A stretch of 64,000 nucleotides of DNA from Rhizobium sp. BK418. GTDB taxonomy: Bacteria; Pseudomonadota; Alphaproteobacteria; Rhizobiales; Rhizobiaceae. The stretch covers positions 62,001 through 126,000 of the forward strand of contig NZ_SLZK01000009.1 of NCBI RefSeq assembly GCF_004341105.1, given 5' to 3'. Shown here piece by piece: positions 41,730-58,126 of this stretch; position 1 is the first letter of the stretch; every line of letters begins with the position of its first letter. Under the pieces are notes generated by a model. The model saw nothing but the letters and a program-made list of their open reading frames with translations, did no database searches and was not told the DNA's origin. The translations under genes were made by a program, and so were the position numbers.

Positions 41730-41794
41730 GCGAATATGGTCGGCGTGGAGGAAATCGCCGGCCATTTAATGGATAACCACAAAGGAGGAGAACT

Positions 41795-43027
41795 ATGGCT
41801 ATCCGCAAATCGGTAATTCTGGGCGCGCTGGCGCTCGCAGGCGTCTCGCTCTTCGGCTTGTCGGCCAAGGCGGAAGACGTCAAGCTGACGCTCTGGTCGC
41901 TGGACAAGGACACCCAGCCGGCTCCGAACCTGGTCAAGGAATTCAACGACCAGCACAATGGCATCACCATCGAATATCGCCTGATCCAGTTCGATGACGT
42001 CGTTACCGAAGCGATGCGCGCCTATGCCACCGGCCAGGCGCCCGATATCATCGCTGTCGACAATCCCGAACATGCGCTGTTTTCATCGCGCGGCGCCTTT
42101 CTTGATCTCACCGATATGATCAAGAACTCGAAGGTCATCAAACCCGAAAACTACTTCCCCGGACCGTTGAAATCGGTCGAATGGGACGGCAAGTATTTCG
42201 GCGTGCCGAAGGCGACGAACACAATCGCGCTCTACTACAACAAGGACATGTTCAAGGCGAAGGGGCTCGATCCGAACAAGCCGCCGCAGACCTGGGACGA
42301 ACTCGTCGAGGATGCCCGCAAGCTCACCGATCCGGCCAAGAACGTCTATGGCCTTGCCTTTTCGGCCAAGGCCAATGAGGAAGGCACCTTCCAGTTCCTG
42401 CCCTGGGCGCAAATGGGCGGCGGCAGCTACGAGCACATCAATGCCGACGGTGCGGTCAAGGCGCTCGAAATCTGGAAGACGATCATGGACGAGAAACTCG
42501 CCTCGCCCGATACGCTGACGCGTGGTCAGTGGGATTCGACTGGTACCTTCAATTCCGGCAACGCCGCCATGGCAATTTCCGGCCCTTGGGAGCTGGACCG
42601 CATGGTGCAGGAAGCCAAGTTCGACTGGGGCGTCACGCTGCTGCCGGTTCCGAAGGAGGGTGCAGAGCGCTCTTCGGCAATGGGCGACTTCAACTGGGCG
42701 ATCTTCTCGACCAGCAAGCACCCGGCCGAAGCCTTCAAGGCGCTCGAATATTTCGCCTCGCAGGACGACAAGATGTTCAAGAACTTCGGCCAGCTTCCGG
42801 CCCGCTCCGACATCTCGATCCCGGAAACCGGCCAACCGCTGAAGGATGCTGCGCTGAAGGTCTTCCTCGAGCAGCTGAAATACGCCAAACCGCGCGGCCC
42901 GCATCCGCAGTGGCCGAAGATCTCCAAGGCTATCCAAGACGCCATTCAGGCCGCGCTGACCGGCCAAATGAGCCCGAAGGATGCGCTTGATCAGGCTGCC
43001 GACAAGATCAAGGCAGTTCTTGGCTGA
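41795..43027 (+). CDS. Carbohydrate ABC transporter substrate-binding protein
   Basis: A 410-aa family 1 binding protein with signal peptide cleaved near [29 protein letters not shown] is a typical start. AGGAGGAG precedes the ATG by 6 nt, a very strong site that fits the high level needed for a binding protein. The ligand is a sugar, type unknown. Confidence 0.9.
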
Positions 43028-57308: not shown

Positions 57309-57564
57309 CGGATGTCCCTAACCGCATTGAAAATTCTAGAGTTAATTTGGGGTTCGGGCGGTCTTGCTTCAACTATACTCATAGATAGGGGCTGGCTCCG
57401 AATTGGGGGGCGGCCATCTGCCTTCGTTATGCGCTGGGTGCATAGGTGAGCTGTAGTCTGGACGCTACTCATTCTCGCAGCCTCATATTATATATTGGTC
57501 ATCAAAGCGAACGAAGCGCCGCTGACTGGCAGCTGGTCGCTAGACCCACGGAAAGGGGACTAAA

Positions 57565-57711
57565 ATGAGCATCGCACGCACTTTCAACAACTGGCGTAAG
57601 TACCGTCAAACCGTTAATGAACTTGGCCGTATGTCGAGCCGCGAGCTTAACGACCTCGGTATTGCACGTGGTGATATCCGCGAAGTTGCACGCGCCGCTA
57701 TCGGCCGCTAA
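57565..57711 (+). CDS. DUF1127 small Arg-rich protein (YjiS/CcaF1-like)
   Basis: A 48-aa basic protein; ATG follows AAAGGGGA. Its whole length is the DUF1127 motif: NNWRKYRQTVNELGRMSSRELNDLGIARGDI. In Rhodobacter sphaeroides the DUF1127 protein CcaF1 binds RNA and is encoded just upstream of the CcsR sRNAs; here a CCUCCUCCC-loop RNA follows 150 nt downstream. In Agrobacterium such proteins affect RNA turnover and phosphate stress. A CTGGAC (57458-57463) may be the -35 of its promoter, but the -10 is unclear. Confidence 0.85.
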   Translation: MSIARTFNNWRKYRQTVNELGRMSSRELNDLGIARGDIREVARAAIGR

Positions 57712-57731
57712 GACGGCATCCACGTGAACCA

Positions 57732-57768
57732 AAAAACGCGCTCGACCTTTCAAAGTCGGGCGCGTTTT
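57732..57768 (+). terminator. Rho-independent terminator after DUF1127 gene
   Basis: AAAAACGCGCTCGAC and GTCGGGCGCGTTTTT form a long stem around CTTTCAAA, ending in T5. It starts 20 nt after the stop codon and would end the DUF1127 transcript before the sRNA. Confidence 0.88.
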
Positions 57769-57825
57769 TCGTTTGTCGAGCCATTCGTCTGACGCATAGT
57801 GCATGGCAGCCCTGCAAATATGTGC

Positions 57826-57854
57826 CTAGAAGAATGGCAAGGCTCAGCCTACAT
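57826..57854 (+). promoter_or_regulatory. Sigma70-type promoter of the sRNA
   Basis: CTAGAA (57826-57831), a 17-nt spacer, then CTACAT (57849-57854). This matches 4/6 and 5/6 of the rhizobial CTTGAC-N17-CTATAT, and the implied start (about 57861) lies directly before the first sRNA hairpin. Confidence 0.6.
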
Positions 57855-57860
57855 GTTGTT

Positions 57861-58017
57861 TTAACGAAGCGATGAAACTCCTCCCTCGTCGCTTCGTCCG
57901 AGACGCGGCTTACCTCCTCCCGAGCCAGCGTCAATGTGGCGGCATCCTCCTCCCGCCGCCACGCGTCATAAGAAGGCGTCTGCCGGATTTCCTCCCTCGG
58001 CAGGCGCCTTATTTTTT
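57861..58017 (+). ncRNA. CcsR/alpha-r14-like sRNA with CCUCCUCCC loops
   Basis: About 157 nt with four hairpins in a row. H1 57865-57896: stem CGAAGCGA/TCGCTTCG, loop with CTCCTCCC. H2 57902-57932: GACGCGGCT pairs with AGCC-A-GCGTC, loop CCTCCTCCC. H3 57936-57962: GTGGCGGC/GCCGCCAC, loop ATCCTCCTCCC. H4 57973-58010: AAGGCG(T)CTGCCG pairs with CGGCAGGCGCCTT, loop contains CCTCCC, then T6 as terminator. Repeated anti-Shine-Dalgarno loops define the CcsR and alpha-r14 (cuckoo) families. It likely base-pairs with ribosome-binding sites or sequesters a protein. Confidence 0.85.
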
Positions 58018-58126
58018 GCAAAAATTAACCGTCATCGCCTCGGCCATCCGGATCTGAATGGTCTCTTATGGCTCCGGTGGCGTTCCCTTACCAGTCAGAT
58101 AGGTCGAGCCGGGCCCGATCTCACGA

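Follow-up and report, generated by a model that had tools for sequence, protein, structure and literature searches.

The gene for an arginine-rich, 48-amino-acid DUF1127 protein and the small RNA (sRNA) encoded downstream of it are a member of the known association of DUF1127 genes with cuckoo/ar14 sRNAs, in a split layout with a terminator between the two parts. They lie in a 64,000-nucleotide stretch (the window; G000:C9:62001-126000) of a Rhizobium genome of 6.4 Mb in 21 contigs. Based on the gene, the sRNA family and its covarying hairpins, the terminator, the linkage of the two parts and the conservation of a regulatory box, we propose that the gene and the sRNA are transcribed separately, that one LysR-type regulator (LsrB/VtlR) activates both, and that the sRNA silences messages carrying GGGAGGAG; taken as a whole, we consider this proposal likely. 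The locus joins two literatures that are apart so far in the open-licence excerpts from which published work is cited here, one on LsrB with the sRNA NfeR1 and the other on VtlR with DUF1127 proteins. The function of DUF1127 is disputed between RNA binding (Rhodobacter) and sensor-kinase binding (Agrobacterium) or protein partners (Salmonella): CcaF1 was reported to bind RNA (PMC10253847), and Agrobacterium DUF1127 proteins were reported to bind PhoR, with CcaF1 able to substitute for them (PMC12501420). A shared switch in a conserved neighbourhood, if true, would test directly whether DUF1127 acts with RNA.

The original prediction had placed here a 48-aa DUF1127 gene, a terminator and then a four-hairpin RNA with anti-Shine-Dalgarno loops, and each part was confirmed: the protein by a PF06568 match well above the curated cut-off, the terminator by a 15-pair stem and the RNA by its fold (Table 1). 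Folding of 57861-58018 gave -74 kcal/mol (z -8.1), and none of 200 shuffles was as good. The loops of the four hairpins present CUCCUCCC, CCUCCUCCC, CCUCCUCCC and UUCCUCCC in this order, the first and the last being shorter variants of the unpaired CCUCCUCCC motif. CcsR sRNAs have this CCUCCUCCC loop motif in common with the locus. Hairpin 4, together with a U tail reaching 58018, probably doubles as a terminator. A simple promoter and terminator scan of the window reported no promoters and neither terminator hairpin, probably because the T run of the first is paired within its stem and the loop of the last is longer than the scan permits.

Table 1. Features of the DUF1127-sRNA locus, in positions of the window.
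Feature	Positions	Strand	Basis
Exact VtlR/LsrB box GCAT-N3-TG-N3-T, GCATAGGTGAGCT, upstream of DUF1127	57440..57452	+	Motif match, definition of PMC7486931
Predicted -10 TTATAT, DUF1127 promoter	57488..57493	+	Best 5-of-6 match to CTATAT in searched range
DUF1127 protein gene, 48 aa	57565..57711	+	PF06568, 62 bits (cut-off 23.3)
Terminator-like hairpin, 15-bp stem, 8-nt loop, T-rich 3' side	57732..57769	+	Folding
Near-box GCATGGCAGCCCT, one mismatch (TG to AG) to VtlR/LsrB box, upstream of sRNA	57801..57813	+	Motif match
Candidate -35 CTAGAA, sRNA promoter	57826..57831	+	Inside conserved TGCCTA block of alignment
Candidate -10 CTACAT, sRNA promoter, 17 nt after -35	57849..57854	+	Best 5-of-6 match in searched range
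Four-hairpin ar14/cuckoo-type sRNA, about 158 nt, both ends predicted	57861..58018	+	Fold, alignment, covariation
Hairpin 1, loop AACUCCUCCC	57864..57897	+	Fold; mostly outside Rfam match, kept in relatives
Rfam ar14 (RF02344) match	57896..58012	+	60.8 bits (gathering 58.8)
Hairpin 2, loop ACCUCCUCCC	57902..57932	+	Fold; absent from RNAalifold consensus
Hairpin 3, loop AUCCUCCUCCC	57936..57962	+	Fold, covariation
Hairpin 4, loop AUUUCCUCCC	57973..58010	+	Fold, covariation

When the Rfam models were run, ar14 was the sole match over gathering in the window, which bears out the predicted membership of the alpha-r14 family; the score is just 2 bits over gathering, and the match spans hairpins 2-4. 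The same model also matches the sRNAs of relatives. An alignment (A2) was made of 31 sRNAs, those of the window and of relatives of the same layout, excluding the split or gap loci L246, L256, L269, L278, L279, L286 and L292, plus L066. Across these 31 sRNAs the loops are nearly invariant and the stems variable, and 98.4% of cells are paired in the RNAalifold consensus of 30 pairs. Double changes were found in 15 of the 30 consensus pairs and amounted to 96 cells, compared with a mean of 29 for shuffled partners and a maximum of 19 for slid structures; many of them divide two clades, so that the number of events is smaller than that of cells. For further pair types the alignment did not stand out from shuffles (35 versus 33.5). 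The stem of hairpin 2 is misaligned between the clade of the window and the others, so the consensus is without this hairpin. Lack of a family-model hit and of hairpin conservation had been named in advance as grounds for dropping the prediction; ar14 scores over gathering, and the stems covary. With 98 occurrences against 128 expected, the bare word CCTCC shows no enrichment in the window, and therefore the signal consists in loop placement, fold and conservation.

Among known systems, the RNA resembles the ar14 sRNA NfeR1 of S. meliloti in its CCUCCUCCC-type loops, in an LsrB-type box upstream and in the presence of several copies per genome. Unlike NfeR1, it has four hairpins (NfeR1 has three), a 5' hairpin not covered by the model, a DUF1127 neighbour and one mismatch in the box. 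Four-hairpin forms of the SmelA099 type have been described (PMC3927594), and these cuckoo or SmelA099-type sRNAs, with four hairpins, an anti-Shine-Dalgarno loop in each and variable stems, show no clear difference from the RNA of the window in a likeness drawn by description.

The linkage of the two parts was analysed in 41 Rhizobiaceae genomes of 40 genera (ar14 E up to 0.001, DUF1127 E up to 0.0001). Matches to ar14 were found in 40 of the 41 and to DUF1127 in 40, one genome having neither. Of the 143 ar14 matches, 76 had a DUF1127 match no more than 1 kb away. In 75 of these the strands agreed, with ar14 following DUF1127 in 64 and preceding it in 11. Chance would give about 0.3 on either strand for an assumed genome size of 4.5 Mb; the matches are not independent, since arrays yield several per gene. 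Counting ar14 over gathering, 66 of 113 were linked on the same strand, and 38 of 40 genomes contained a linked pair. Linkage concerned 60 of the 75 DUF1127 matches of at least 45 bits, which are mostly of the short type, and 3 of the 75 weaker ones. An order-wide sample showed an ar14 match in 20 of 61 genomes, over the cut-off in 7; a DUF1127 gene ended within 250 nt before the best ar14 locus, or overlapped its start, in 8 of 18 genomes and in 4 of the 5 with ar14 over the cut-off, counts that omit the genome of the window and its genus mate. Class-wide, ar14 (E up to 0.001) was found in 5 of 115 genomes, over the cut-off only in that of the window. In one genome of another order (G062) a DUF1127 gene lies 40 nt before two ar14 matches that score below gathering, and the other three class-wide ar14 loci have no DUF1127 gene alongside; the pattern used in a class-wide hairpin test did not place DUF1127 in 14 of 28 loci, G062 included.

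The pairing is common in Rhizobiaceae and thin elsewhere by the ar14 model. The conserved protein-sRNA neighbourhood that had been predicted was thus found far beyond chance in this family, and also in some other families of the order; outside the order it held in a single genome, with scores below gathering. It did not hold up as news, because the association is already in print: short DUF1127 genes often accompany CcsR-like sRNAs in alphaproteobacteria, at the 'CIN1 locus' (PMC10253847, 2023, which cites Reinkensmeier and Giegerich 2015 for it). Among the plasmids of a collection, the 10 kb surrounding the locus had their closest counterpart on a 2.1-Mb plasmid of Sinorhizobium sp. B11, which covered 94% of them at 82% identity, and a 2.1-Mb plasmid of Rhizobium sp. 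WYJ-E13 covered 37% at 84% identity; records very near the window were possibly excluded from this comparison. The gene order in common with B11 is LLM oxidoreductase, DUF1127, gap and lytic transglycosylase.

Layouts were assigned by custom scripts in a named set of 80 loci, chosen from 540 relatives as the best matches to an alignment with the window protein as its first member; the layout of the window is over-represented in this set, and related loci are not independent. In the fused layout (22/80; Aurantimonas, Martelella, Aureimonas, Phyllobacterium, Aminobacter and Brucella included) the anti-Shine-Dalgarno hairpins start 2-36 nt past the stop codon. In the split layout (26/80; Rhizobium, Agrobacterium, Neorhizobium, Shinella and Ciceribacter included) the script calls a terminator ahead of the first hairpin, and this hairpin lies 99-251 nt past the stop codon, at least 141 nt past it in 24 loci. 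Six gap loci have the spacing of the split ones and no called terminator, and 26 loci have no downstream hairpins, 8 of them with at least two upstream. As upstream control, a CCTCC-loop hairpin was detected in 11 of the 80 loci, some being real upstream arrays. Split loci mostly have a ARSFNNWRKYRQTV-type protein, a type shared by many loci without downstream hairpins. A less biased family sample of 75 loci contained 40 fused, 26 without hairpins, 5 split and 4 gap, and the layout of the window was recognized by eye in four (the window, L107, L128 and L129). These labels depend on the script, which called a locus fused when the first hairpin was within 130 nt of the stop and included among the split ones the doubtful L094 and L139 (family sample) and L256 and L286 (named set); another rule, which misses terminators with paired T runs, gave 2 split loci instead of 5 in the 75. 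Three of the four gap loci in the family sample (L096, L102 and L111, from G028, G038 and G015) have tandem DUF1127 genes, two in succession before one sRNA array.

Each part of the locus has promoter-like sequences upstream. The predicted -10 before the DUF1127 gene is sigma-70-like, with TATAT kept across the alignment, and the box upstream is exact in 7 of 8 aligned rows, window included (counted by eye). The start of this box is 48 nt from the predicted -10, and the same 48 nt separate the start of the near-box from the predicted -10 of the sRNA; assuming a start at 57862, the sRNA box occupies -61 to -49. The stretch preceding split-layout sRNAs is strongly conserved in the alignment of relatives, and CTAGAA-N17-CTACAT of the window, with its conserved upstream block, is close but not identical to CTTAGAC-N17-CTATAT of NfeR1 (PMC10746234). 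Because the terminator and this conserved promoter-like stretch lie between them, the DUF1127 gene and the sRNA appear to be separate transcripts, and the sRNA seems to own a promoter; a joint transcript could arise through leaky termination. Attenuation by an upstream ORF, the mode of S. meliloti duf1127-1 (PMC12218461), was considered and rejected, since the ORFs seen ahead of the gene (57312-57449 and 57446-57568) have their first codons upstream of the start predicted at about 57500.

This arrangement bears on the comparison with ccaF1-CcsR1-4 of R. sphaeroides, whose neighbourhood the locus had been predicted to repeat. A DUF1127 gene directly upstream of sRNAs is common to both, and this part of the prediction stood, a short DUF1127 gene lying beside a CcsR-like sRNA; the repetition is incomplete in that a terminator and a promoter-like stretch intervene. 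In R. sphaeroides one precursor is made behind an RpoHI/RpoHII promoter and processed, CcaF1 and RNase E taking part in CcsR maturation (PMC10253847); the sRNAs are within the DUF1127 transcript and a terminator is present only at its end, whereas here a terminator-like hairpin separates the two parts. The same mode could operate at this locus if a precursor read through the terminator, RNase E freed the sRNA from the DUF1127 3' UTR and the protein aided maturation. Such processing would be in line with the reported roles of CcaF1 and RNase E and with the fused layout being the commonest in the family sample, but it would have to pass a 15-bp terminator stem, a terminator being called in a similar place, 49-56 nt past the stop, in seven close relatives (L077, L078 and L237-L241). 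It would also leave aside the stretch before the sRNA, which shows promoter-like conservation and has a box whose distance is nearly fixed; we consider such processing unlikely.

Separate transcripts could be coordinated through the box. The sequence GCAT-N3-TG-N3-T was proposed for VtlR in Agrobacterium and Brucella (PMC7486931), and the LsrB site in the NfeR1 paper is written differently, as TGCA-N6-GCAT (PMC10746234). This box is what the locus has in common with the VtlR/LsrB regulon (AbcR sRNAs, DUF1127 genes, NfeR1 and VrsA), and the sRNA box lies in the place reported for S. meliloti abcR1, -61 to -49 (PMC8844928); the locus differs in that DUF1127 and ar14 promoters are adjacent, the box being exact at the former and having one mismatch at the latter. 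In published work, LsrB activates and NtrC represses the ar14 sRNA NfeR1 (PMC10746234, PMC7143759), in Brucella three DUF1127 genes and abcR2 are under positive control by VtlR (PMC12595884), and Agrobacterium VtlR activates atu1667, which was called orthologous to two Brucella DUF1127 genes (PMC7486931). Since LsrB activates NfeR1 and VtlR activates DUF1127 genes, we infer that one LysR-type regulator (LsrB/VtlR) may co-activate both units here. Within the excerpts of the open-licence literature, we found no statement of a shared box for neighbouring DUF1127 and ar14 units and no paper linking DUF1127 with NfeR1 or its older names.

The box has seven fixed bases only and 17 exact matches in the window, on both strands; therefore the exact DUF1127 box by itself means little. 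Among the 32 split or gap loci of the named set, the interval from -64 to -51 relative to the first hairpin contained an exact sRNA box in 25 and, when one mismatch was allowed, a box in 29, and no box was found near the usual place in 3; controls for the exact box gave a mean of 1.1 (maximum 6) in shuffles and 2 on the opposite strand. In the same set, the DUF1127 box was exact in most split loci (20 of 26), in 2 of the 22 fused loci and in none of the 6 gap loci. In 17 of the 32 split or gap loci the DUF1127 box was exact and the sRNA box had no more than one mismatch; both were exact in 13. The distance from box to -10 was 48 nt in 21 of 35 DUF1127 promoters and 47-48 nt in 19 of 29 sRNA promoters of the named set; with shifted anchors in the DUF1127 set, 5% were at 47-48 nt.

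In the family sample, an exact gene-strand box preceded 24 of 75 short DUF1127 genes (shuffles 1.8, maximum 6; downstream control 2) and an exact box preceded 15 of 46 unlinked ar14 over gathering (shuffles 1.1, maximum 7). The latter were at two distances before the model start, 54-59 nt (9) and 90-99 nt (6), and the longer one suits RNAs that, like that of the window (95 nt), have an additional hairpin at the 5' end. The opposite strand was also enriched for the exact box (DUF1127, 15/75; unlinked ar14, 5/46). Allowing one mismatch, the DUF1127 counts were 52/75 on the gene strand, 60/75 on the opposite strand and 27 in shuffles, and those for unlinked ar14 were 28/46, 27/46 and 13; the box may be near-palindromic. 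A permuted-motif control had a mean of 0.9; its maximum of 24 probably arose because some permutations reproduce the motif. In a positive check, a LysR gene of the genome was found to adjoin tandem AbcR genes (RF00519), and an exact box precedes each of the latter. Judging from its place and sequence, this LysR gene is probably LsrB. A third AbcR-like gene in the genome is without the box.

The TG to AG change in the sRNA box of the window is common to 6 of 7 close relatives (L077, L078, L237-L239 and L241); the seventh, L240, has no sRNA box within one mismatch. Because this mismatch affects a fixed position and is common to close relatives, LsrB binding at the sRNA box of the window could be weak or lost. 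The mismatch also agrees with a reading in which the neighbourhood is real and its parts no longer cooperate, the sRNA being one of several redundant ar14 copies and perhaps silent. Five ar14 copies in the genome exceed the cut-off, that of the window scoring lowest, and in S. meliloti Northern blots reliably revealed just one of the six copies under the tested conditions (PMC7143759). We find this reading improbable, as the stems covary and the upstream region is conserved, close relatives of the window included. There is hardly any reason to believe that the 158 nt encode a peptide: open frames exist (a 61-aa ORF at 57872-58057 and a 107-aa ORF on the minus strand), but the 61-aa ORF has no Pfam family, sequence changes track base pairing, and lengths range from 158 to 173 nt over the 31 relatives with no steps of three, the ends being set by the analyst.

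According to the proposal of separate, co-activated units, the DUF1127 mRNA would extend from its own promoter to its own terminator, and the sRNA would start about 150 nt past the stop codon from its own sigma-70-type promoter. With a VtlR/LsrB-type LysR box placed to start 48 nt before the -10 of both promoters, LsrB/VtlR would probably switch the pair on together without co-transcription. The four anti-Shine-Dalgarno loops would then pair with GGGAGGAG-like ribosome-binding sites and block translation, the targets perhaps being notably ABC-transporter binding proteins. A comparable action is known for NfeR1, which uses its three loop motifs to silence messages at their ribosome-binding sites (PMC10746234, PMC7143759). 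A wider generalization, to which we give somewhat less than an even chance, is that DUF1127 genes and anti-Shine-Dalgarno sRNAs of Rhizobiaceae form one LsrB/VtlR module, in which an ancestral transcript was split, the pairing was kept by an equidistant LysR box, and redox or nitrogen stress would jointly raise a translation-silencing RNA and a protein that binds sensor kinases or RNA.

Candidate targets were searched with the pattern GGGAGGAG-N3-8-ATG, which occurs 44 times in the genome, compared with 6 for the reversed pattern. Thirty of the 44 sites were examined, and 18 were followed by ORFs of at least 200 aa, among which Pfam identified 7 ABC solute-binding proteins and 1 ABC permease. 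The control site GAAAGGAG occurs 41 times (8 reversed), and 30 examined sites gave 7 long ORFs and no ABC protein. The excess of ABC transport behind GGGAGGAG (8/18 versus 0/7; one-sided chance of about 0.04, by hand) is suggestive only. A duplex-energy target scan of the window gave the antisense ORF of the sRNA itself as top match, and its other matches gave little. A weak ar14 match (25.9 bits) at 41732-41820 of the window, on the minus strand, is antisense to a AAAGGAGGAG ribosome-binding site, which belongs to an ABC solute-binding protein gene (SBP_bac_1; 41795-43024, plus strand); this match is probably a target-like site and not a second sRNA.

Further arrangements of DUF1127 genes and sRNAs were observed. 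A second cluster in the same genome (contig C1 of G000, 467392-468494; L003, L006 and L113) consists of a three-hairpin ar14, a DUF1127 gene, a single CTCCTCCC hairpin 4 nt past the stop, a terminator and another DUF1127 gene, in this order. In Rhizobium sp. Root1334 (L279, 1830-2071) part of the sRNA, a hairpin included, is duplicated internally. In L209 (G073; same class, another order) four hairpins with TCCTCCCC or CCCTCCCT loops were called after a DUF1127 gene; they may represent a distant form of the RNA. Finally, L384 (G161; same order, another family) contains at 899-2421 four tandem same-strand DUF1127 domains and three ar14-like matches, which looks like a repeated protein-plus-RNA unit.
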